Shown: positions 43,912 to 53,616, numbered from the stretch's first letter. The stretch: DNA of 64,000 nt from Clostridiaceae bacterium BL-3 (GCA_902809985.1 CADDXC010000001.1:620001-684000); one strand, 5' to 3'. The notes: generated by a model from the sequence alone, not told the origin. Numbers and translations are program-made.

Positions 43912-45639
43912 ATGAAAATAAATGTCTCTAGAATAATGAATACTAGTATTTTATTGATAAAATTAGAAGGTAAATTAAAAAACTTAAGTCAAAATAAAGA
44001 AACATATGATTATGTGATTGTAAACGATAATAGAGATGAAGTAAAAAAGATATTTTGTTATCTAGGTGAAAAGCATAGGGTACCATTTGACACTATTGGT
44101 TATTTATATTATAAAGATTTAATAGAGGTAAATCAGAATGTTAAAGATGTAATTATTGTTAAAGATGATAAATATAATGTGGTCGGGATTATTACCAATC
44201 GTGAATTGCTAAATTTTATAGAAAATAAATATAAAATACTTTTAGAAGACTATACCCGTGTAAAAACGGATTTGAATGCTTTTATGACTTGCTCGGATGA
44301 TCTGGTTTGTATTACTGACGGATCCGGTATTAAGGTCAGAATAAGCTCTTCTTGTGAGAAAATCTATGGTGTAAAACCTAAAGAACTTATTGGAAAGAAT
44401 GTAAGGGAATTAGAGAAAAAACGTATATATTTGCCATCTGCTACAAGAATGGCTATAGAGGAGAAAAAGCCTATAACCTTAACACAAAGAACGAAATCAG
44501 GAAAAAAGCTTCTTGTAGTAGCTACACCTGTTTTTGATAAAGATAATAATGTTAAACGTGTTGTCAGCATATCAAAGGACATAACGAATGAAGAGATGCT
44601 AAAAAGTGATCTGTATAAGACTAAAGATCTTTTACAGAGGTATGAGCAGGAACTGGCAGCTTTGAGAATTGAACAGACTCAAGATCACAACATTATATAT
44701 AGAAGCAAGGAAATGGAAAAAGTTATAGAAGTGATAAAAAAAGTCGCAGTAGTGGATTCCACCCTTATTATATATGGAGAAACCGGAGTTGGCAAGGAAG
44801 TAATATGCAAATATGTTCATAATATCAGTAACAGAAATGGGAGACCTTTTGTTAAATTAAATTGCGGGGCGATTCCAGAGAACTTACTGGAAACTGAGTT
44901 ATTTGGGTATGAAAAGGGTGCTTTTACTGGGGCACGTTCTGAAGGAAAGCCGGGGCTTTTTGAGATTGCCGACAAGGGAACTCTGTTTCTCGATGAAATT
45001 GGTGAAATACCTTTTATCCTACAAGTAAAGCTTCTGAGAGTGCTGCAGGAGAAGGAATTTATCAGAGTGGGTGGTATTAAACCTAGAAAAGTTGATGTGA
45101 GAATAATAGCGGCTACCAATAGAGATCTAAAAAAATTGGTTGAAGACGGGAAGTTCAGGCAGGATTTATATTACAGGCTAAATGTAATTCCAATAACGAT
45201 ACCTCCTTTGAGAGATAGAGTAGAAGACATATCCGTACTTGCATATCATTTTTTGGATGTATATAATAAAAAATATGGCTATTCAAAACAGCTTACAAAT
45301 GAGGTTATAGAAGTTTTTATGAAATATAGATGGCCGGGAAATGTGAGAGAGCTGGAAAATGTAATTGAGCGTACTGTAATAATTTCAGAAGATAACCAGA
45401 TTAGATGCAGTGATCTGCCTGGGGAACTGACGACTACGAATGAAGATAGTAACCTATCAGATGAAATACATATTTCGAAACTTATGCCTCTTAGGAAAGC
45501 TTCTGCATTAGTGGAGTACCAGCTTATAAAAAGGGCTATTGATGAGAACGGAAGCACCTATAAAGCAGCTAAAGTGTTGGATGTAGATCAGTCTACGATT
45601 GTAAGAAAAATAAAAAAATATGAGTCCGCAGCAAAATGA
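43912..45639 (+). CDS. Sigma-54-dependent activator (PAS, AAA+, Fis/TyrR-type HTH)
   Basis: 575 residues. An N-terminal part ending in a CBS-like stretch (DVIIVKDDKYNVVGIITNRE, ~80-105); a PAS domain (~118-225, ending VSISKDITNEEMLKSD); the AAA+ enhancer-binding core with Walker A GETGVGKEV, the sigma-54 contact loop GAFTGA, Walker B GTLFLDEIGE, and RWPGNVRELENVIERTV; and a C-terminal helix-turn-helix (STYKAAKVLDVDQSTIVRKIKKY) of TyrR/RocR type. There is no response-regulator receiver, so it probably senses a small ligand through the N-terminus. It is separated by a terminator from a -24/-12 promoter and is its obvious activator. Confidence 0.93.
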   Translation: MKINVSRIMNTSILLIKLEGKLKNLSQNKETYDYVIVNDNRDEVKKIFCYLGEKHRVPFDTIGYLYYKDLIEVNQNVKDVIIVKDDKYNVVGIITNRELLNFIENKYKILLEDYTRVKTDLNAFMTCSDDLVCITDGSGIKVRISSSCEKIYGVKPKELIGKNVRELEKKRIYLPSATRMAIEEKKPITLTQRTKSGKKLLVVATPVFDKDNNVKRVVSISKDITNEEMLKSDLYKTKDLLQRYEQELAALRIEQTQDHNIIYRSKEMEKVIEVIKKVAVVDSTLIIYGETGVGKEVICKYVHNISNRNGRPFVKLNCGAIPENLLETELFGYEKGAFTGARSEGKPGLFEIADKGTLFLDEIGEIPFILQVKLLRVLQEKEFIRVGGIKPRKVDVRIIAATNRDLKKLVEDGKFRQDLYYRLNVIPITIPPLRDRVEDISVLAYHFLDVYNKKYGYSKQLTNEVIEVFMKYRWPGNVRELENVIERTVIISEDNQIRCSDLPGELTTTNEDSNLSDEIHISKLMPLRKASALVEYQLIKRAIDENGSTYKAAKVLDVDQSTIVRKIKKYESAAK

Positions 45640-45665
45640 ATTTTTAATGTAGCCATGCATTGCTT

Positions 45666-45681
45666 AATGTAAATTTACATT
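45666..45681. promoter_or_regulatory. Candidate enhancer site: 16-bp palindrome
   Basis: AATGTAAATTTACATT is a perfect palindrome ~80 bp upstream of the -24/-12 promoter, a usual distance for an activator site. The neighbouring activator is the likely ligand. Confidence 0.6.
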
Positions 45682-45712
45682 GATTAATATAATATTTGAA
45701 ATTTAAAATTAT

Positions 45713-45743
45713 GACCTAAAGGCATTTATAGGTCTTTTTTTTA
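45713..45743 (+). terminator. Terminator of the activator gene
   Basis: GACCTA (45713-45718) pairs with TAGGTC (45729-45734), then eight T. It insulates the regulator from the operon. Confidence 0.75.
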
Positions 45744-45745
45744 TT

Positions 45746-45761
45746 TGGCATAAATTTTGCG
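45746..45761 (+). promoter_or_regulatory. Sigma-54 (-24/-12) promoter of the carbohydrate operon
   Basis: TGGCAT (45746-45751) and TTGC (45757-45760): the invariant GG and GC are 10 bp apart as in the consensus TGGCAC-N5-TTGCW. Start of transcription expected near 45772, 32 bp before the first gene. Confidence 0.88.
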
Positions 45762-45803
45762 TAAGCTTAAGGATGTAAAAATATCTTATGGGAGCGATGG
45801 TAT

Positions 45804-47027
45804 ATGAACCAAAATATTTATAAGAGCAGTGCTATGGAACGATTGAATTTGACGAGCCAAGATATGGAGCTTTGGTGGGATTCAAATCCTCTTATCTATG
45901 AAACATGGTGTGAGAAATTTTTAAAATCCACTCCGGATAATTTAAGGGATATTGTGAAATCACAATTAAAGAAGCTGTGGGATAGTAATACGGATTCTGA
46001 AAAATGGGTATTCAAAGGCGTTACCACAAATCCTCCCCTTACAAAGGCGGTATTTGATCTATTAGGTGATAAATGGGCTCCGATTATTAGGAACATCATA
46101 CACTATAATCCTAAACTTAATATGGATGAAACTACCTGGAAAGTTTATATGGAAGCTTGCAAAAGAGGTGCCGCACGTTATTTGAATTTATATGAGCAAT
46201 CTTCACATAAATATGGTTTTGTGTCAGCTCAAGTAAATCCTCAAGATTATATTAATCCGTTTAAAATGGTCAAGGAGGGACTTGGATTAAAACAATTGCA
46301 GGCTAACATTATGGTAAAAGTTCCAGCAACTGAGGAGGGCGTCTTGACAATATTTATATTGACACTTCTTGGCATTCCTACAAATGCAACTTTGTCCTTT
46401 ACGCTGCCGCAAATTATGGCAGTTGCAAAGGCAGTTAAATCAGGCAGGGAATTGGGCGAAAAATTTGGAACTGACTATTCAAATTGGCGTTCAGTAATAA
46501 CATTGATGATAGGGAGATTTGAGGATGCACATACTTTTGAGGATGAGGCTTCAGAAAGAGGGGTTAAACTTACTGAAAAAATGAAGAGGTGGGCTGGTAT
46601 TGCAATAGCTAAAAAGGCCTGCAGAATTTTAACTGAGAATAAGTATCCAAGTAAATTGTTGATTTGCTCTATGAGAGTAGGTCCTGAGATTGACGGAGTT
46701 AAACAGATATGGCATATAGAAAAATTAGCTGGTGAAAACATGATATTTACAATGAACCCAAATTTGATACAGAATTTAATGCTTCTGTATATTGATAGAC
46801 CGTTGAAAAGCGGTGTAGAGGAGCAGGTACCAGAAGAGATTATAGAGGAACTGCTGAAAATACCTTATTTTAGCAGAGGATACGGTGAAGAAACAATTGC
46901 TCCAGATGAATTTAAAAATATAGAGCCTACTTTTACAACTTATAAGCAATTTTCAAGTGCAGTAGATGATCTGGAATCTTTTGTTTCTATAATAAAAAAT
47001 TCAAGTAAAGGTGCTTCTGTTATATAG
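45804..47027 (+). CDS. Long transaldolase-family protein
   Basis: 407 residues, well above the ~215 or ~320 of housekeeping transaldolases. Family marks: VFKGVTTNPPLTKAVFDLLG, ANIMVKVPATEEGV (Schiff-base lysine in MVKVP), NATLSFTLPQ, and ICSMRVGPEIDGVK. It is preceded by an extra N-terminal region (~60 residues) and a C-terminal extension. Expected to transfer a dihydroxyacetone unit or act as an aldolase on a sugar phosphate. First gene after the -24/-12 promoter, GGGAGCGATGG ribosome site. Confidence 0.87.
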   Translation: MNQNIYKSSAMERLNLTSQDMELWWDSNPLIYETWCEKFLKSTPDNLRDIVKSQLKKLWDSNTDSEKWVFKGVTTNPPLTKAVFDLLGDKWAPIIRNIIHYNPKLNMDETTWKVYMEACKRGAARYLNLYEQSSHKYGFVSAQVNPQDYINPFKMVKEGLGLKQLQANIMVKVPATEEGVLTIFILTLLGIPTNATLSFTLPQIMAVAKAVKSGRELGEKFGTDYSNWRSVITLMIGRFEDAHTFEDEASERGVKLTEKMKRWAGIAIAKKACRILTENKYPSKLLICSMRVGPEIDGVKQIWHIEKLAGENMIFTMNPNLIQNLMLLYIDRPLKSGVEEQVPEEIIEELLKIPYFSRGYGEETIAPDEFKNIEPTFTTYKQFSSAVDDLESFVSIIKNSSKGASVI

Positions 47028-47051
47028 GAAAGTTTGGAGGGTGTATTTAAA

Positions 47052-47885
47052 TTGGTGGATATTAATAGAGATGAAATTAGGAAAACAGCAGAACAAATCA
47101 GAAAGGATTGTATTTGTATGAGCACTAGAGCAAATTTTGGACATCTAGCGCCAGCGCTTTCTAGTGCGGATATTATAGCGACTTTATACAAAGGTATTAT
47201 GAACTACAGACCTGATAATCCTCAGTGGCCTGATAGAGATAGTTTTATTTTAAGCAAAGGGCATGGCTGTTTAGCATTATATTCAATATTATCTCAGGTA
47301 GGATATTATAAACGTGATCTATTAAGAGATTTTGCCAGCAAATGCGATACCATGTTGCCTGGGCATCCTGAGATAAAATTACCGGGGGTTGAAGCCAATA
47401 TGGGATCATTAGGTCATGGCATTCCATTGGCCATCGGTATGGCATTGGCGGCAAAAATGGATGATAGAAAGTGCAGGGTATTTGTTTTAACAGGTGATGG
47501 AGAGCTTGAAGAGGGAACTAACTGGGAAGCTGCAATGATTGCTGCAAAACATAAACTGGATAATTTGGTTGTTATAGTGGACAGAAATAGTTTGCAACTG
47601 GGGGATTTTACTGAAAATATAAGTCAACTAGAGCCATTAGAGGATAAGTGGAGAGCTTTTGGATGGTCTACTAAAAATGTAAATGGCCACAATATAGGGG
47701 AATTACTGACTTCATTAAATAGTGCACCTTATGAGACTGGAAGACCTACTGCTGTAATAGCTCATACAATTAAGGGAAAAGGACTGGAAATTGCAGAGAA
47801 TAAAATAGAATGGCATCACAAAGTTCTGACAAGAGAACAATATGAGAGCCTAAAAGATAATTTGGGATTGGAGGCACTTGAATGA
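47052..47885 (+). CDS. Transketolase, N-terminal subunit
   Basis: 277 residues, the TPP pyrophosphate-binding half: LSKGHGCLALYSILS, LPGHPEIKLPGVEANMGSLG, HGIPLAIGMALAAKM and the TPP motif GDGELEEGTNWEAAM with NLVVIVDRN. The second half is the next gene, overlapping by ATGA. TTG start at 47052 is 8 bp from GGAGGGTG; TTG 47034 precedes that site. Moves two-carbon units between sugar phosphates. Confidence 0.93.
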   Translation: MVDINRDEIRKTAEQIRKDCICMSTRANFGHLAPALSSADIIATLYKGIMNYRPDNPQWPDRDSFILSKGHGCLALYSILSQVGYYKRDLLRDFASKCDTMLPGHPEIKLPGVEANMGSLGHGIPLAIGMALAAKMDDRKCRVFVLTGDGELEEGTNWEAAMIAAKHKLDNLVVIVDRNSLQLGDFTENISQLEPLEDKWRAFGWSTKNVNGHNIGELLTSLNSAPYETGRPTAVIAHTIKGKGLEIAENKIEWHHKVLTREQYESLKDNLGLEALE

Positions 47886-48829
47886 TGACTGAAAATAAAA
47901 AATCCACAAGAGATGCTTTTATAGATGGACTCCTGAGTGTAGGAGAAGGTAATAAAAAAATAGTAACTGTAGCTGCAGATTCACAATCTCGATATGGAAG
48001 CTTCGTAAATTTGTACAGGGAAAGAAGCTTTAATGTGGGTATAGCTGAACAGTCAATGATAGGTATAGCTGCTGGGCTGGCATTGGCTGGTAAAATTCCT
48101 GTAGTTACTTCCTATGCAAACTTTCTAACCTTTAGAGCTTGTGAGCAAATTAGAGTGGATATTGCTGGACAAAATTTGAATGTCAAAATTGTTGGCACGG
48201 ATACAGGTTTTTCTTCAGAATGGCTTGGCTATACACATATGGCATTGGAGGATGTGGCTTCCATAAGATCAATTCCAAATGTTGTGATAATAGATCCTGC
48301 GGACTATAATGAGGCATTTGCCGCAACAAGGGCAGCGTTTGAATACAAGGGGCCGGTGTATTTACGTTTAAGGGGCAGAAAGAAAGAGAACTTAGTCTAT
48401 GATAGAATTCAGGACTTTCAAATTGGGAGAGGAAATGTATTGCGAAAAGGTAAAGATGCAGTTGTAATCTCATCCGGCGGTGCAGTATACGATTCCTTAA
48501 AAGCCGTGGATTTATTGCGGCAAAATGGTATTAATGCTGCATTGATTGATATGGCGTCTATAAGGCCATTGGATGATGAACTCATTCTGAATTTTGTATC
48601 AAAAATAAAGACAGTTGTTACAGTGGAAGATCACAATATTGTAGGTGGACTGGGAAGTGCTGTTGCAGAGCTGCTCTCAGAAAACACCAGAGATACAACA
48701 CTTTTAAGGCTTGGTGTAAAAGACAGCTTTGGAACTGCTGGAACCGATGAAATGCTTAAAAAGAAATTTATGTTAGATACAGATGGAATTGCATCTGGTA
48801 TCAGGTCGTTTATTGAAAATCATAGATAA
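47882..48829 (+). CDS. Transketolase, C-terminal subunit
   Basis: 315 residues, the pyrimidine-binding and C-terminal domains: FNVGIAEQSMIGIAAGLALA (catalytic glutamate in AEQ), GFSSEWLGYTHMALEDVAS, RLRGRKKENLVYD, ALIDMASIRPLDDELI and VEDHNIVGGLGSAVAELL. Starts within the stop of the N-subunit gene (ATGA), so translation is likely coupled. Confidence 0.93.
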   Translation: MMTENKKSTRDAFIDGLLSVGEGNKKIVTVAADSQSRYGSFVNLYRERSFNVGIAEQSMIGIAAGLALAGKIPVVTSYANFLTFRACEQIRVDIAGQNLNVKIVGTDTGFSSEWLGYTHMALEDVASIRSIPNVVIIDPADYNEAFAATRAAFEYKGPVYLRLRGRKKENLVYDRIQDFQIGRGNVLRKGKDAVVISSGGAVYDSLKAVDLLRQNGINAALIDMASIRPLDDELILNFVSKIKTVVTVEDHNIVGGLGSAVAELLSENTRDTTLLRLGVKDSFGTAGTDEMLKKKFMLDTDGIASGIRSFIENHR

Positions 48830-48860
48830 TTTATTTATATGAAAAGGGGTGTTTGATATC

Positions 48861-49316
48861 ATGAAAATTATAATCGGAGCAGATAATCTTGGATATGATC
48901 TAAAAGAAATTGTAAAGACACATATTGAGTCAAAAGGTATAGAAGTAGTTGATGTAGGAGTATATGATAAAAAGCCGGTAGACTATCCTGATGTGGCGCT
49001 GGCCGTTGCTAAGAGAATAGCAAATAATGAATTTGAAAGGGGAATTTTGATATGTGGTACAGGTATAGGAATGGCTATTGCAGCAAATAAGGTGCCTGGA
49101 GTGAGGGCAGCCCAGTGCCATGATATTTATTCAGCAGAAAGGTCCAGGAAGAGCAATAATGCACAGATAATGACCATGGGTGCTGTGGTGATTGGGCCGG
49201 AGTTGGCTAAAAAACTAGTTGATGTCTGGCTTGAATCTGAATTTCAGGGTGGGCGCTCCATACCCAAAGTTAAAAAGATAAACGACATAGATAGTAGATG
49301 CCGTAAATCTGTCTAG
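48861..49316 (+). CDS. RpiB/LacAB family sugar-phosphate isomerase with altered active site
   Basis: 151 residues. MKIIIGADNLGYDLKEIVK, VDVGVYDKKPVDYPDVALAV, GILICGTGIGMAIAANKVPG (catalytic Cys in CGTG), YSAERSRKSNNAQIMTMGA and FQGGRSIPKV. Compared with E. coli RpiB, the ring-opening histidine in the SRQHND segment is Ser (SRKSNN) and the DH phosphate contact is DN. This points to a non-ribose, perhaps open-chain tetrose phosphate substrate. ATG 48861 is chosen, 9 bp after AAAAGGGGTG. Confidence 0.88.
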   Translation: MKIIIGADNLGYDLKEIVKTHIESKGIEVVDVGVYDKKPVDYPDVALAVAKRIANNEFERGILICGTGIGMAIAANKVPGVRAAQCHDIYSAERSRKSNNAQIMTMGAVVIGPELAKKLVDVWLESEFQGGRSIPKVKKINDIDSRCRKSV

Positions 49317-49361
49317 AGGTTATGTTAAAATCAATTATTTAGTAAAAAGGAAGGTTGGAAT

Positions 49362-50309
49362 ATGTCAAGATATGATTGCGATTTACATTGTCATACAGTT
49401 AGATCTGATGGAAATGACACTCCCAGGGAACTGATAGATAATGCAGCTAAAATTGGTATGAAAGTTATTGCAATAACCGATCATGATATACAGCCTCCAT
49501 CTGTAGTTAAAGTGGGAAATGAGGAAATACCAATTAAAAAATATGCATTTGATAAGGGCATTGAATTGGTTTTGGGATATGAATTTTCCTGTGATACTTA
49601 TGTGGATGATGTGCATATTTTAGGCTATAAGCTTGATTGGAGTAATAAATTGGTAGAAGATGAGGTTAGAAGGGAAAGAGAGAGCAAGGTGGATGCTTAT
49701 AGAAAATTATGTGATGTGTTAACTGAAAATGGAATTCATGTGGATTATGAAAATTCCATATTGCGGTATACGGATGAAGAGGATAATGTAAGATACAGAA
49801 AACCGGAGGATGTGCAGAGAAAACATATATTTGAGTTCATTGCTAAAACGGGATATGCACCTAGCTGGAAAGATGCAAAAATAATGGTACGTGATAATCC
49901 CAAATTAAATGTGAGAAGAAAAAAAATAAATCCTTTTGACGCAATTGATCTTATTAAAAATTGCGGGGGGACGGTTGTATTAGCCCATCCATTTTTAATT
50001 GATGATGTAGTTAAATATCCTGATGGGAAAACTCTTACAAGAGAGAATTACATAAATCAATTGATAGAACATGGGCTTGACGGAATTGAAGCTTGTTATA
50101 CCTATTCCAAAACCAGCTATAAGGGCAGCTTTAGTAATAAGGAAATAGAAAACTATATAAAAGAACATTATGGAGACAGGGTAAAATTTTTTACAGGTGG
50201 TTCGGATTATCATGATGACGGGAAGAAAAATGTAAAAAACCCAAGGTGTATAGGAGAAGCTGGTATTACCTATGAAGAATTCAATACTATAAGAGATTAT
50301 TTTATTTAA
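49362..50309 (+). CDS. PHP-domain phosphoesterase
   Basis: 315 residues. PHP metal ligands: CDLHCHTVRSDGNDTP, IAITDHDI, LVLGYEFSC, HILGYKLDW, VLAHPFLIDD, FTGGSDYHDDGKK. It resembles the TrpH/nucleoside bisphosphatase branch more than HisJ. Within this operon it might dephosphorylate a pathway intermediate, but the substrate is unknown. ATG follows AAAAAGGAAGGTTGG. Confidence 0.85.
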   Translation: MSRYDCDLHCHTVRSDGNDTPRELIDNAAKIGMKVIAITDHDIQPPSVVKVGNEEIPIKKYAFDKGIELVLGYEFSCDTYVDDVHILGYKLDWSNKLVEDEVRRERESKVDAYRKLCDVLTENGIHVDYENSILRYTDEEDNVRYRKPEDVQRKHIFEFIAKTGYAPSWKDAKIMVRDNPKLNVRRKKINPFDAIDLIKNCGGTVVLAHPFLIDDVVKYPDGKTLTRENYINQLIEHGLDGIEACYTYSKTSYKGSFSNKEIENYIKEHYGDRVKFFTGGSDYHDDGKKNVKNPRCIGEAGITYEEFNTIRDYFI

Positions 50310-50338
50310 AACGTTGATTACGGAAAGGATTGATGAAA

Positions 50339-50725
50339 TTGCCATTAGTTAGTAGTAAAGCGTTGTTAATTCATGCACTTAAAAATCACTACGCAGTTGG
50401 TGCATTTAATGCAAATAATATGGAAGTGGCACAAGCTATTGTTATGGCAGCCGAGGCAGAAAAGGCACCGGTTATAATTCAGATGAGTCAAGGAGCAATA
50501 AAATATGCTGGTATGAACGGTATTTTTTCAATTGTTGGATCATTGGCAAAAAGATCAAGCGTACCAGTTGTCTGCCACTTGGATCATGGAGTTGATTATG
50601 ATGTTGTGGTGGGTGCATTGAGGACGGGCTTTACGTCGCTCATGTTTGATGGATCGCCTCTGTCCTTACAGGGCTGTATTTTACCAAATGTGCCAGCGGA
50701 GGACCTGAATTTAAGAAATGCGTGA
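50339..50725 (+). pseudogene. Class II fructose-bisphosphate aldolase-type, N-terminal fragment
   Basis: Only the first ~108 of about 280 residues remain: PLVSSKALLIHALKNHYAVG, AFNANNMEVAQAIVMAAEAE, VVCHLDHGVDYDVVVGALRTG, FTSLMFDGSPLS. The zinc histidine of LDHG is present but the later metal and catalytic segments are lost. Near 50666-50671 it joins another gene's sequence out of frame and stops at 50725. TTG 50339, 9 bp after GGAAAGGA, gives the usual M-PLV start. A non-functional remnant unless the fragment has another role. Confidence 0.85.
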
Positions 50726-51105
50726 TATTGGATGTGACAGATGAGTCCCATGGAAATACAAATGGAGTGGGAATGGCTGATGTCACGACTAGAAAGCTAT
50801 TTGATAAAATAGATTTTATCTCGATGTATACAAATTGTTTTACAAGTACTGAAATAGAACCTGCTAAGATACCTATGGTTGCCAGGAATACGGAAGATGC
50901 TGTGAGGATAGCAGTCAAATTGTGCAATGGTATAAAAAGTAAGCAGCATAAGATAGTCTGGATTAAAAACACCATGGAGCTGGGGAAAATATTGGTAAGC
51001 GAACCTCTGCTGCCCGAAGTTGAAAAAAATCCCAAGCTTGAAATTTTAACTGGCACTAAAGAGATTGAATTTAAAAAGGGCGAACCTGTAGATATATGGA
51101 GATAA
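50666..51105 (+). pseudogene. LarA-like (lactate racemase domain family) protein, C-terminal fragment
   Basis: Reading in the second frame from the junction: TGLYFTKCASGGPEFKKC, VILDVTDESHGNTNGVG, DVTTRKLFDKIDFISMYTNC, TSTEIEPAKIPMVARNTEDA and IVWIKNTMELGKILVSEPLL. This is the conserved tail of ~430-residue LarA-related, nickel-pincer isomerase-like proteins as I recall them; about the first 280 residues are missing. An in-frame GTG at 50722 opens a 127-residue frame, but no ribosome site precedes it. Confidence 0.65.
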
Positions 51106-51259
51106 GAGTATGTTAGTGCTTAAAAGTAGATATGATGTCCACAAAATGATTTAATTTATACACCAGCAACCGGTGATTATAAATTACAATATACCAGATA
51201 TCAAATAATTAAGATTTGTGGTTGAAATATCTACTGGCATATAAAAGGGGAAATGTATT

Positions 51260-52227
51260 ATGGAAAATATAGAAGTGAAAAATATACCTAAAAGCAGATG
51301 GTTTCGAATTATTCCTCCCTGTATACTTGTTTATATAATTGCGTATATGGATAGGCAAAATATATCTTTTGCGATTGCCGGGGGAATGAACAGGACTTTG
51401 GGTATAGGTTCAACTGTAGCTGGAATAGCTGCCGGTATATTTTATGTGGGGTACGTTATACTTCAAATACCAGGAGGAAATTATGCAGAACACAAAAGCG
51501 CTAAGAAATTTATATTGAAATCCATAATGGCGTGGGGTTTGATTTCAATAATAACTGGCTTTGTAAATCAAACATGGGAACTGTTGGCATTGCGTTTTGC
51601 ATTAGGAGTGGCAGAGGGAGGAGTCATGCCGGCTATTCTGGTTTTGATAACTCACTGGTTTCCAAATGAAGAAAGAGGAATGGCAAATGGATTCTTTGCG
51701 TTCAATTTTGCAATAGCAAGCGTTATTACTGCTCCTCTTTCAGGATGGATAATTTCTTTTTCTAATTGGCGATGGGTTTTTATTATTGAAGGCATAATAG
51801 CATTTATGCTGATATTCATCTGGTATCCGATTTATCGGATAAAACTCAGAAGAGAAAATTATTTGCAATAATTCCAATGATATTTTTTGCATTGTCACTT
51901 ACGTTTTCAGTTAAATTTAAAGCTAATATATGGACCTCCTATGTCTTCTTGGCGTTGGCGGGCGTGTTCATTCATGATTATTACAGCAGTTTCTGGTCTT
52001 TACCACCTATGTTATTTGAATCTGATGTCAGCGGAGATGCACGTGGATTTATAAATGGAATAGGCTGTTTAGGCGGATTTATAGGGCCTTATTTGGTAGG
52101 GCTCGTTATGACATATACAAATAGTTCAGATATTGGAATGTATATATTAGCCATCGTTTTATTGATAGGATGTTTTTTCAATGCAGTTATAAAGCTCCCT
52201 ACTATTATAAAAGAAAATAGAAATTAG
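51260..52227 (+). pseudogene. MFS transporter (ACS/sugar-acid type) with internal deletion and frameshift
   Basis: The N-terminal half (ILVYIIAYMDRQNISFAIAG, GYVILQIPGGNYAEHKS, FALGVAEGGVMPAILVL, WRWVFIIEGIIAFML) runs to IWYPI at 51830, then shifts frame and stops at 51871. The other frame continues as DLSDKTQKRKLFAIIPM and GGFIGPYLVGLVMTYTNSS to 52227. Against the intact paralogue downstream, about 100 residues (TM6-TM8 loop region) are missing. The short TATCCGAT/TTATCGGAT junction suggests a microhomology deletion. Confidence 0.85.
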
Positions 52228-52326
52228 CAGCTCAAATATAGTTGGAGACTAAAAATAATAAATAATATTTATAAAAATTGGATAGGTATAACTAAGATTT
52301 GTAAAATTAAGGAGGGAAAGGAAGAT

Positions 52327-53616
52327 ATGCAATCTGAAAAGACTAGATCAGGTAAATTAAAGATTCGTGGATTACGTTGGTGGATGTTTGTATTCTTCTT
52401 AATTATAGGCATATTTAATTACATGGATAGAATTTCATTGTCCATTCCAATGTCATTGATAGGCAAGCAATTGCATATAGGAACAATGTTTACGGGAATA
52501 GTGCTGAGTGCTTTTTTCTGGAGTTATACACTTATGCAGTTGCCGGGAGGATGGTTGGTAGATAAATTTAAACCCAGAAGAATTGTGACCTGTGCATTGA
52601 TAGGCTGGGGTTTGGCTGAGAGTCTAACGGGTCTTGCAAACAGCTTTATGTCTTTGATAATTATAAGGTTATTTCTTGGAGTATTTGAGGGCCCTGTTCA
52701 AGTTGGTTGTAATACATCTCTTGTTAGCTGGCTTCTTCCATATGAGCGCGGAAGGGGAAGTACATTGGTAGACAGTGGAGGCCAGCTTGGTGCTGCACTG
52801 GGCGGAATAGTAGTCACAGGTCTCATAATGTGGCTGGGTACTTGGAGGATAGCATTTGCAATATTAGGTGTGCTAACTATATTAATTGGCATTGTCGCAT
52901 ATTTGTTTATGAGAGACAATCCTTCAGAACATCCAATGATAACTGAAGAGGAAGTTGAATATCTCAGCAAAAATGAAACTGGGGAAGAAGATAATAAAAT
53001 TACAGGAGGAAATATTCTTCTGTATTTTAAACATGCTAGTCCATGGATGTTATTGCTGGGATTTGCTTCTTATGATGCTGTTGTATATGGACTGTTGACT
53101 TGGATTCCTTATTATATACAAAAAGTTAGGCATATTTCTTTCGGAATGACAGGGGTATGGACAATGCTTATTTTTGGATGCGGGTTTATAGGTGAAATTA
53201 TTGCAGGGCAATTGTCAGATCGATGGAGGAGACATCCAGGTGCTTCTACGAATGTTGTCATGAAGACAATGCTTGGATTTGCGGGTATTGCAGTAGCAAT
53301 TTCTGTATTGATGGTTAATTTTGTCCAAAATGCAACTGCTGCTGTTTTATTGATAAGTATCGCCAATTTCTTTTTGCGTTGGGGTGGATTGTATTGGAGT
53401 GTACCACAAATGTTAGTGGATAAGCAACATGTAGGAAGACTGTCAGGAGCAATGAATTTCGCAGGAAATGTAACGGGAATTATAATTCCAATTTTGATAG
53501 GTTGGATTGCTGCATTCAGTGGAGGATTTACAGCTACCTTTGTTATTTTCTGTGTGGCAGGATTGCTTATGACAATAAGTTCGATATCTATAAACTATTC
53601 TCATAAATTAAGTTAA
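52327..53616 (+). CDS. MFS transporter, ACS family
   Basis: 429 residues, 12 TM helices, intact. Marks: FLIIGIFNYMDRISLSIPM, SYTLMQLPGGWLVDKFKPR, FLGVFEGPVQVGCNTSLVSW, ERGRGSTLVDSGGQLGAALG, AGQLSDRWRRHPGA. The anion:cation symporter group imports organic anions, often sugar acids such as galactonate or hexuronates. It probably takes up the operon's substrate and may still work although its paralogue is broken. AAGGAGGGAAAGGAAG precedes ATG 52327. Terminator follows. Confidence 0.92.
   Translation: MQSEKTRSGKLKIRGLRWWMFVFFLIIGIFNYMDRISLSIPMSLIGKQLHIGTMFTGIVLSAFFWSYTLMQLPGGWLVDKFKPRRIVTCALIGWGLAESLTGLANSFMSLIIIRLFLGVFEGPVQVGCNTSLVSWLLPYERGRGSTLVDSGGQLGAALGGIVVTGLIMWLGTWRIAFAILGVLTILIGIVAYLFMRDNPSEHPMITEEEVEYLSKNETGEEDNKITGGNILLYFKHASPWMLLLGFASYDAVVYGLLTWIPYYIQKVRHISFGMTGVWTMLIFGCGFIGEIIAGQLSDRWRRHPGASTNVVMKTMLGFAGIAVAISVLMVNFVQNATAAVLLISIANFFLRWGGLYWSVPQMLVDKQHVGRLSGAMNFAGNVTGIIIPILIGWIAAFSGGFTATFVIFCVAGLLMTISSISINYSHKLS

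Follow-up and report, generated by a model that had tools for sequence, protein, structure and literature searches.

What substrate is served by a clostridial operon that combines a long transaldolase-like protein (TAL) with a split transketolase (TK), a sugar isomerase, a phosphoesterase and transporters? The question is raised by positions 43912–53616 of a 64-kb stretch of DNA (the window, meaning this whole stretch), in which all genes described below lie on the plus strand. An earlier note had read them as a sigma-54-controlled operon in which an imported sugar acid or short sugar is converted to an open-chain sugar phosphate and drained by transketolase and transaldolase. The elements it named, an activator with GAFTGA, a palindrome, a -24/-12 promoter and the gene series, are all present on the basis of the sequence and of Pfam and NCBIfam profiles. 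The answer proposed here, on which our judgement is evenly balanced, is that the operon represents a decayed member of a conserved, sigma-54-activated type that breaks down a sugar acid (aldonate, ketoaldonate or uronate), the keto-acid being drained unphosphorylated.

The first gene (43912–45639) encodes a sigma-54-dependent activator with PAS, AAA+ and Fis-type HTH domains (Pfam Sigma54_activat, 242.8 bits; PAS_9; HTH_50) and GAFTGA in its translation; the nearest NCBIfam model is PrdR (449 bits, under the cut-off of 795). It is followed by a perfect 16-bp palindrome, AATGTAAATTTACATT (inverted repeat, 45666–45681), a possible activator site, and by the -24/-12 promoter TTGGCATAAATTTTGCGT (45745–45762, plus strand, GG-N10-GC) with 0 mismatches to the consensus. 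No other match with at most one mismatch occurs in the 64 kb of the window (0.36 expected); since 26 of 100 shuffled sequences also give at least one such match, the site by itself would be weak evidence. The same site lies 5′ of the TAL gene in Thermosediminibacter litoriperuensis, an activator homologue stands immediately 5′ of the TAL gene in eight other loci, and a strict site occurs in 9/9 loci with an upstream sigma-54 activator (window counted in) and in 0/2 loci without one. Sigma-54 control, as claimed earlier, is supported by these patterns and by the pairing of a GG-N10-GC promoter with a linked GAFTGA-bearing AAA+ activator. By eye, the palindrome is not common to relatives, and a TGCA-N4-TGCA repeat is found shortly 3′ of the activator stop in six of the nine activator-linked loci, being absent from the window and the other two. 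The putative terminator 5′ of the promoter (GACCT...AGGTC followed by T8) is visible by eye and unlisted by a consensus scan.

The TAL gene (45804–47027, 407 aa) encodes a protein 63% identical to that of locus L021, which matches PF00923 (TAL_FSA, 101 bits, cut-off 27) and retains the Schiff-base lysine, the K172 column being Lys in 37/37 aligned rows. The aligned key residues are D26, Q143, K172, N194, T233, and R238, assignments taken from the alignment only, because the AlphaFold model is unusable (pLDDT 43.6). The catalytic Glu of true transaldolases is Gln in 35/35 long-family rows and Glu in both small SF-type rows; Gln at this position is associated with aldolase activity in the FSA/TalB literature. 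The best score against NCBIfam transaldolase equivalog or subfamily models is 76.1 bits, under the cut-off of 367. The RpiB-like isomerase (48861–49316; PRK05571, 191.5 bits, cut-off 135) is the second RpiB of the genome, 48% identical to the paralogue at C1:2810171. The canonical DH is kept in seven of nine operon RpiB rows (DN in the window, DE in L187). In a tree of nine rows the window and T. litoriperuensis proteins group with ordinary RpiB, apart from the isomerases of sulfoquinovose-type clusters, which have a clade of their own (100/99); against these cluster isomerases, which stood in for a reference SqwI, the operon protein is not of SqwI type. The genome holds further TK and RpiB genes besides the operon copies. 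The PHP-family phosphoesterase (49362–50309; Pfam PHP) has residues H9, H11, D16, H41, E74, H85, H209, D282, and H284 invariant in an alignment of three rows, and among 391 genomes 11 loci match it over 355 bits, the next best scoring 121.

The distal genes are damaged. Only the N-terminal 108–111 residues of the class II aldolase remain (50330–50664; 70% identical to residues 1–111 of the L021 protein, which has 309), and the reading frame stays open until a stop codon at 50725. What follows (50668–51105) is the 3′ end of a gene for a LarA-type nickel-pincer epimerase, matching positions 291–391 of 392 of NF052515, "nickel pincer isomerase group 22" (123.7 bits, under the whole-protein cut-off of 400). 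The aldolase and LarA fragments recognized earlier are thus both present, and it can be added that they meet out of frame at about 50665 (junction 50665–50668, from the ends of the two homologies). Of the two ACS-type MFS transporters reported, the second (52327–53616) is whole (TIGR00893, 235 bits, residues 27–420, cut-off 395), whereas the first is broken into an N-terminal piece (51260–51871; TIGR00893, 158 bits, same cut-off; 58.7% to residues 4–197 of the 424-residue MFS at L078, from another operon of the same genome) and a C-terminal piece (51877–52227; 46% to residues 311–423), about 113 middle residues being missing. The window copy has decayed: the greater part of both the aldolase and LarA is gone, one MFS is without its middle, and kinase, DapA and dehydrogenase genes have presumably been lost as well. 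Given these losses the copy probably provides no working pathway and is probably non-functional.

The LarA piece (50668–51099, 432 bp) is 99.5% DNA-identical to an intact LarA of the same genome (L078, 11409–11840). As a recent near-identical copy from another operon, it may represent a gene that did not belong here earlier. Two relatives do carry LarA at the corresponding place. LarC, a gene for the nickel-pincer cofactor, scores over cut-off at two places in the genome, which on this gene indicates cofactor synthesis. The near-identity, together with an assembly in 7 contigs, would also suit an assembly error at the aldolase/LarA junction, the real locus being intact. This we consider very improbable: two bases differ between the LarA copies, the similarity stops at the stop codon, the own-genome stretches compared showed no further copy of the aldolase side, and the first MFS, at a distance of about 1 kb, is truncated too.

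A search of 100 other genomes around T. litoriperuensis found the same long TAL-like gene in nine, six of the nine holding all of the split TK, RpiB-like, PHP and class II aldolase genes; all six core genes occur in 8/11 loci (the window included, with its truncated aldolase). Since other genomes repeat the gene order and the promoter at similar spacing, the arrangement is more than chance. The lack of kinase and dehydrogenase reported earlier is true of the window copy, but G441 (L182; aldolase-TK2-FGGY-DapA-2HADH-LarA-DctP-DctQ-DctM-SDR) and G440 (L180; aldolase-TK2-FGGY-DapA-2HADH-LarA-FGGY-UxaA-like) carry an FGGY kinase, a DapA-type protein and a 2-hydroxyacid dehydrogenase at the junction position. 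The kinase that, according to the earlier note, an intact operon may hold is thus found between aldolase and LarA, and because these genes sit there in two relatives, the "missing" ones probably went with a deletion. Their absence is probably a local loss, which cautions against inferring a pathway from the window copy alone. The LarA proteins of G441 and G440 exceed the group-22 cut-off (521 and 523 bits), and G134 has the set without TAL (TRAP-LarA-RpiB-TKN-TKC-aldolase-PHP-GntR-DapA-2HADH-FGGY). Some relatives have TRAP importers, a galactarate-dehydratase-like protein, a 2-hydroxyacid dehydrogenase and a DapA-type protein. Of the earlier supposition of an imported sugar acid or short sugar, the sugar-acid theme is upheld by LarA group 22 in G440/G441, the ACS-type MFS and the TRAP and acid genes of relatives. 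In G447 and G448, which have DeoC-like, SDR and HAD-type genes, LarA was not found in the stretches read; judged from this content, the core does not serve a single acid only.

The nature of the drained compound is best approached through the TK, whose N-terminal half (47052–47885; TPP domain; Pfam Transketolase_N, 164.8 bits) is followed by a C-terminal half recognized by Pfam (47882–48829). In an alignment of 25 rows the head-group columns of the window protein read R-Q-F-D-R, i.e., His to Asp. This replacement occurs in 10/11 first TKs of the operon, the eleventh having Asn; the exact RAFDR is found in six of the 11, although its S/A/Q column, which adjoins a gap of two residues, is aligned less securely than the His/Asp column. 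The second TKs of the same operons have the canonical RSFHR (4/4), as do both other aligned split TKs of the window genome. The available part of PMC11659671 assigns RSFHR to phosphate TKs and RAFDR to sulfofructose TKs. TKs of sulfoquinovose-type clusters have RAFDR in three of four cases (two of the three being 97% identical) and RSFSR in one; in the TKs of further aldolase-PHP operons the His is replaced by G, S or N. In a tree of 13 rows that includes just two first TKs of the operon, the window TK groups with that of L021 (100/100), apart from the sulfoquinovose-type TKs at a fork that is not firm (84/93); if the fork is right and the operon TKs are truly apart, the common Asp is convergent. 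The His-to-Asp change suggests a ketose that carries some other acidic group in place of phosphate. Draining by transketolase and transaldolase agrees with the TK and TAL-like enzymes of the operon; the supposed conversion to an open-chain sugar phosphate is not favoured by the residues, His being lost from the phosphate-orienting set.

A literature search gave no described pathway with exactly this gene set, as the earlier note had stated, yet the sulfo-TK and bifurcated sulfo-TK-TAL pathway of Clostridium sp. MSTE9 and Faecalicatena for sulfoquinovose, a plant sulfosugar, is a close functional analogue in what is accessible of PMC11659671, sharing a split TK with His-to-Asp, an isomerase of a C4 intermediate and a TAL, and draining an anionic ketose kinase-free as proposed for the operon. 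The second Faecalicatena transaldolase described there (F2; D23, Q111, K140, N162, T201), whose role that part of the source leaves open, has the same Gln and the same Q-K-N-T spacing as the window protein (Q143, K172, N194, T233) and seems to belong to the Gln-type family. This family is found in sulfoquinovose-type and in inositol clusters, with unphosphorylated anionic ketoses as expected substrates. Five myo-inositol (iol) clusters (L080, L081, L082, L086, L091) contain it with the same D, Q, K, N, T, and R, the expected substrate being an unphosphorylated 5-ketohexonate (2-deoxy-5-keto-gluconate); they differ in that TK, RpiB and sigma-54 activator were not recognized in the stretches read. 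IolE, IolD, and IolG are over cut-off in L082, and IolC in none of six genomes tested, five of them with an iol + TAL cluster; IolC-like sugar kinases under cut-off (up to 228 of 300 bits) occur in inositol genomes. A Gln-type transaldolase in inositol breakdown was not found described in the literature search.

In an intact copy, where the PAS/AAA+ activator and -24/-12 promoter precede the genes, an ACS MFS or TRAP system would import the acid, LarA would correct its C2 configuration and an oxidoreductase would produce a ketose with a free far-end carboxylate. From its residues and context, the operon's own TK may take a two-carbon unit off the unphosphorylated keto-acid and pass it to glyceraldehyde 3-phosphate; the products would be xylulose 5-phosphate and an acid shortened by two carbons. 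The RpiB-like isomerase could convert a four-carbon aldose acid to the ketose for a second TK round, leaving glyoxylate; the Gln-type TAL-like enzyme might instead remove a three-carbon unit, to an acceptor or as free dihydroxyacetone. The second, canonical TK, the class II aldolase and the PHP phosphoesterase would lead phosphorylated products to triose phosphates, and the 2-hydroxyacid dehydrogenase and DapA-type protein would handle short oxo-acids. This scheme does not account for the step of the FGGY kinase.

More tentatively, and at less than even confidence, the operon may be the carboxylate counterpart of sulfoglycolysis, in which unphosphorylated ketohexonates and shorter keto-acids are split by the His-to-Asp TK, the RpiB-type isomerase and the Gln-type TAL into glyoxylate or tartronate semialdehyde and sugar phosphates; the same Gln-type enzyme would let inositol degraders bypass the kinase IolC and the aldolase IolJ, one family thus serving carboxylated and sulfonated ketoses. 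If so, the principle that an acidic end group replaces phosphate, with TK/TAL working kinase-free, would extend to carboxylated sugars, and the Gln-type transaldolase family and LarA group 22 would gain roles, both directly testable.

Kinase-free draining has to be set against the FGGY kinases, present in 6/11 loci (L021 through L099, L179–L183) and also where G134, G108, and G229 carry the set, with xylulokinase and gluconokinase as best models, all under cut-off; no FGGY match occurs in about 20 kb read of each of L186 and L187, where TAL and TK are present. Where the kinase occurs, some step probably involves a phosphorylated substrate. It might phosphorylate a sugar acid or pentulose, TK, TAL-like protein, RpiB and aldolase being extra pentose-phosphate copies that drain a sugar phosphate. 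The canonical second TK in four operons and an RpiB over the cut-off of ribose-5-phosphate isomerase models would fit, and as the pentose phosphate pathway of clostridia can operate with no transaldolase, according to the part of PMC7029132 at hand, aldolase and PHP would find a place. This explanation is nevertheless judged somewhat unlikely, as the phosphate-orienting His is gone from the first TK in 11/11 loci, with a canonical TK beside it in four, the TAL family is of the Gln type known from clusters for unphosphorylated anionic ketoses, and the genome already has TK and RpiB elsewhere.

A sulfonated substrate would account for the RAFDR motif, reported for sulfofructose TK and shared by six of the 11 TKs of the operon, and for the TK, isomerase and TAL set itself (PMC11659671, in part). 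It appears quite improbable, since sulfoquinovosidase, sulfoquinovose isomerase and sulfoacetaldehyde reductase are absent among the family-scanned window proteins and none was recognized by eye in the relatives read; these carry LarA, DapA-type protein, 2-hydroxyacid dehydrogenase, FGGY, class II aldolase and PHP instead. In L085, by comparison, a PRK10426 glycosidase passes its cut-off and an SftI-type isomerase scores 372 bits (cut-off 700). The operon RpiB, moreover, is outside the sulfo-isomerase clade, and LarA acts on 2-hydroxycarboxylates, as far as the consulted parts of PMC7583248 and PMC11770544 go. In a further alternative, TK, TAL, RpiB and dihydroxyacetone kinase would together assimilate a short polyol, as in a Listeria operon. 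Such joint assimilation of a polyol, glycerol or dihydroxyacetone would be in line with DhaL (240.6 bits, cut-off 138) and DhaK (384 bits, just under 406) in G442, and with a pair of small membrane proteins in T. litoriperuensis, G442, and G447, which we take to be Lin0368/Lin0369-type putative glycerol transporters, one having no match in an NCBIfam search. LarA, the galactarate-dehydratase-like protein, the 2-hydroxyacid dehydrogenase and the TRAP/ACS importers of other copies make this improbable as well.

The preferred reading, of a sugar-acid operon, bears on LarA group 22, which relates the G440/G441 operon and the G134 set to the LarA superfamily and D-gluconate 2-epimerase (GntE), the window differing in holding the 3′ end only; in the accessible portions of the literature no reported activity of this group was found. 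Tetronates are broken down by kinase/dehydrogenase pathways with a DUF1537 kinase and PdxA2. Both DUF1537 and PdxA are absent among the operon's proteins scanned with Pfam and NCBIfam. In G429 (L110), the neighbours of LarA group 22 are a protein of the D-threonate-kinase type (190.9 bits, cut-off 450) and a PdxA protein (343.8 bits against 290), and from this setting the group seems to serve acid sugars.

The operon at 43912..53616 opens with a PAS/AAA+ activator gene (43912-45639), downstream of which lies a -24/-12 site at 45745-45762 with no mismatches. After this promoter come genes for a transaldolase-like protein (TAL), the two halves of a transketolase (TK), an RpiB-like isomerase and a PHP phosphoesterase. 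In the damaged part that follows, a class II aldolase gene is cut off after its first third and a LarA-type gene is reduced to its final third, and the 3' end is formed by two TIGR00893-type MFS genes. All genes listed in an earlier note were found. The terminator that it had placed before the promoter is visible by eye as a hairpin with a T run but is absent from the consensus terminator scan, and its 16-bp palindrome is real but not common to the relatives. Judged by eye from their translations, the flanking genes resemble ones for housekeeping and sporulation; they include two sigma factors and an NrdR-like protein.

A scan of genome contigs yielded one relative, Thermosediminibacter litoriperuensis DSM 16647 (locus L021), with a TAL 63% identical, a whole aldolase gene and the order activator-TAL-TKN-TKC-RpiB-PHP-aldolase. 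Among 59 relatives of the window's genome no other long TAL was found, the sole full-length match being the window itself, and among 101 genomes around T. litoriperuensis it occurs in 10, that species included (E 1e-60). The loci of these 10 genomes and the window make up the 11 loci compared. All six core genes are present in eight of them, counting the window with its truncated aldolase and L187, where the order differs; the three that fall short are L181, which has several damaged genes and no RpiB match, L185, where no aldolase is seen before the contig end, and L186, where neither RpiB nor aldolase is matched. The activator lies directly upstream of the TAL gene in 9/11 loci, and the strict pattern TGGCA[CT]N5TTGC precedes the TAL gene in all nine, which supports the proposed sigma-54 promoter; no such strict site stands before the TAL gene in L186 and L187, the two loci that lack the activator. 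A TGCA-N4-TGCA repeat follows shortly after the activator in six of the nine activator-linked loci (by eye). In T. litoriperuensis another -24/-12-like site, with one mismatch (L021:19742-19759), stands ahead of a cupin-ALDH unit that may be a second member of this regulon. L186 (genome G508) combines the long TAL with TK and PHP without an activator, and carries ~7-8 kb downstream a dehydratase gene and a malate-racemase-like LarA of another group (333 bits, below the cut-off of 500).

The gene-neighbourhood search proposed in the earlier note thus found a conserved operon, with the aldolase whole in a relative and an FGGY kinase in 6 of the 11 loci (L021 with L099, and L179-L183), a count in which L184 and L185 end too early to show the gene; L186 and L187 have no FGGY match in the ~20 kb read. 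In the relative G441 the aldolase gene is followed by a second TK pair, an FGGY kinase, a DapA-type protein, a 2-hydroxyacid dehydrogenase, LarA of group 22 (NF052515), a TRAP transporter and an SDR, and in G440 by a second TK pair, FGGY, DapA-type, dehydrogenase, LarA group 22, another FGGY and a last protein, a homologue of which matches the galactarate dehydratase model below its cut-off. The FGGY and DapA-type proteins score below every specific cut-off. The arrangement TRAP-LarA-RpiB-TKN-TKC-aldolase-PHP-GntR-DapA-dehydrogenase-FGGY in G134 is the same set without the TAL gene; G442 carries DhaK/DhaL, and G447 and G448 have DeoC-like, SDR and HAD-type genes, with no LarA in the stretch read.

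In the window copy the aldolase and LarA pieces join out of frame at ~50665, and the first MFS gene is split in two pieces with ~113 residues gone. Another operon of the source genome holds an intact LarA gene that matches the LarA piece at 99.5% identity over 432 bp, the similarity beginning at the junction and ending at the stop codon; the LarA copy of G007, a species of the same genus, is 89.8% identical. The simplest account is that a LarA gene would once have belonged to the locus itself, and that recent recombination with the copy in that other operon would have caused the loss of sequence here or gone along with it. The junction sits where G440 and G441 hold the second TK pair, FGGY, DapA-type and dehydrogenase genes (~6.7 kb in both, from coordinates), and we therefore infer that the kinase and dehydrogenase were lost there. 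The statement that no kinase and no dehydrogenase belong to the operon accordingly holds for the window copy but not for G440 and G441, which carry both.

According to the passages of PMC11659671 drawn on here, the phosphate is oriented in ordinary TKs by an R-S-F-H-R set, which is R-A-F-D-R in sulfofructose TKs. These columns were read in all 25 TK C-halves collected; the His/Asp column is free of gaps, and the S/A/Q column borders on one. In the first TK of the operon (TK1) the His is replaced by Asp in 10 of 11 cases and by Asn in the eleventh: the motif is exactly RAFDR in six, RQFDR in the window, L184 and L185, REFDR in L186 and REFNR in L187, whose TK, the sole C-half of that locus, is counted as TK1 (its script label TK2 is an effect of the identity threshold). 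The second TK of the same operons has RSFHR in 4/4, and so have two other aligned split TKs of the source genome, three more distant matches lying outside the alignment. The reading of the operon as a plain duplicate of housekeeping pentose-phosphate genes was rejected on the changed TK residues and on the 39-48% identity to the genome's other copies. In the TKs of further aldolase-PHP operons (G134, G429, G142) the His column holds G, S or N.

The TKs of sulfoquinovose-type clusters show RAFDR in three of four, two of the three being 97% identical; the fourth, from G229, is assigned to this class by gene context only and has RSFSR. In the TK tree the operon TKs stand apart from the sulfo-type TKs with a support of 84/93, which is not firm; if this split is correct, the shared Asp would likely represent convergence. 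Several forks of the TK and TAL trees are not firm, and long branches meet in the TAL tree. That the operon is itself a sulfoquinovose cluster was rejected, since no SQ genes were found among the family-scanned window proteins or, by eye, in the relatives read; its RpiB also falls outside the sulfo-clade. It seems to be an acid-sugar operon that works like the sulfo-TK/TAL pathway, from whose clusters these two points set it apart.

The TAL-like protein carries Gln at the position of the Glu of true transaldolases in all 35 long-family rows (27 initial ones, 15 of them from 23 class-sample matches, plus the remaining eight) and not in two small SF-type rows. All six residues of the window TAL are common to 25/35 of these rows; the eight added ones all have Gln, and seven of them differ from the window in at least one of the other five positions. 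The same Gln is reported in PMC11659671 for a second transaldolase, an enzyme whose role the passages cited leave open. An AlphaFold prediction for TAL on a two-row alignment (A1) gave a pLDDT of 43.6.

The family occurs in 17 of 391 genomes of the class sample, at 23 places (E 1e-20). Five of the loci read are inositol clusters (L080, L081, L082, L086 and L091, in G118, G145, G091, G134 and G229) with a gene for a Gln-type transaldolase of 358-359 aa; L082, the one scanned, has IolE, IolD, IolG and CoA-acylating methylmalonate-semialdehyde dehydrogenase over the cut-off. IolC exceeds its cut-off in none of six genomes tested, all five inositol-cluster genomes included (best 228 of 300 bits), as compared with 3/14 control genomes; kinases below this cut-off exist in the inositol-cluster genomes. 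The Gln-type TAL of these clusters may cleave unphosphorylated 2-deoxy-5-keto-gluconate, replacing IolC and IolJ. L085, L090 and L092 resemble sulfoquinovose clusters (L085 and L090 family-scanned), as perhaps does L094, and the remaining loci read are without clear context. Inositol breakdown passes through an unphosphorylated C6 ketose with an acidic end. The same is true of sulfoquinovose breakdown, as described in PMC11659671. The occurrence of the family in both types of cluster, taken with the TK residues, carries most of the case for the mechanism proposed below. A plasmid search with TAL returned 16 records, Shinella and Clavibacter relatives among them; the nearest, from Shinella (L074 CP132317, L075; 37.5% identical), sits in an acetoin-dehydrogenase-like operon, flanked by its E1 and E2 genes, in a neighbourhood that also codes for a phosphoglycolate phosphatase and a triose-phosphate isomerase.

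The substrates of LarA enzymes are 2-hydroxycarboxylates (PMC7583248, PMC11770544, in the parts cited). The source genome has three other group-22 LarA genes over the cut-off, one of them in the operon L078 (G000:C1:317000-336900) with a DapA-type protein, a YjhG/YagF D-xylonate-type dehydratase (1144 bits, cut-off 808), a galactarate-dehydratase-like (UxaA-like) protein below cut-off, IclR and an ACS MFS transporter that shares 58.7% identity with the first of the two pieces of the split MFS in the window. This content supports an acid substrate for the LarA/MFS part of the window operon and is no proof for the TK/TAL part. A PDB sequence search with the L078 LarA gave no match at 0.001, so the substrate residues of LarA1 could not be located in it. 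In the class sample, LarA group 22 over cut-off is found in 10 of the 17 TAL genomes versus 24/391 overall (Fisher p 1.5e-9), a figure that ignores kinship and joins different loci and was set aside as evidence for one pathway. The TRAP binding proteins from G441 and G134 matched PDB sequences broadly (80 and 75 of them, 4p47 and 4pbq scoring best); some of the nearest entries presumably hold erythronate or gulonate, a point given no weight as evidence. The enzymes of L078 are 99-100% identical to those of L114 in G007, but MFS, LarA and IclR only 83-94%, which suggests patchy recent exchange between the two species. At L110 (G429) LarA group 22 adjoins a D-threonate-kinase-type (DUF1537) protein and a PdxA protein, and may epimerise tetronates there.

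From the gene content, promoter, residues, conservation and damage observed, a mechanism whose chances we judge to be evenly balanced can be proposed for the intact operon. A sugar acid would be imported, LarA would set C2, and oxidation would give a keto-acid sugar, from which the dedicated TK would remove C2 units, the RpiB-like enzyme resetting the C4 acid between rounds until glyoxylate remains; alternatively, the Gln-type TAL-like enzyme would remove a C3 unit. The canonical TK, aldolase and PHP would bring carbon back to triose phosphates, the dehydrogenase and DapA-type protein would handle small oxo-acids, and DhaK/DhaL in G442 would take up free dihydroxyacetone. This scheme accounts neither for the FGGY kinase nor for the DeoC-like, SDR and HAD-type genes of G447 and G448. 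The earlier remark that no described pathway has exactly this set agrees with the literature searched (sulfo-type TK/TAL, TK/TAL with sugar acids, LarA with TK, 5-ketogluconate with TK/TAL, and transaldolase in inositol breakdown), where no description of it was found.

The PHP family usually acts as a phosphatase. In the 391 genomes of the class, the PHP alignment identified 11 loci above 355 bits in 10 genomes, the window among them, all else scoring 121 bits or less; in the other 10 loci the PHP gene adjoins or is fused with a class II aldolase gene, and the two are also adjacent in T. litoriperuensis and the window. Counter-cases are L187, where the genes lie apart, and L186, with no aldolase match. 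A plasmid search with PHP returned 24 records, all below 60% identity (23.7-28.7% among the 12 matches listed). In G142, G344 and G312 (L144, L145, L146) aldolase and PHP form one protein of ~600 residues. At L143, L145, L146 and L148 the pair is accompanied by a HAD phosphatase, an FGGY kinase and DeoC-family genes, as many as four in tandem, and in some by a glycerol-1-phosphate-dehydrogenase-like gene, in what looks like an undescribed cluster (family scan mainly of L143 members).
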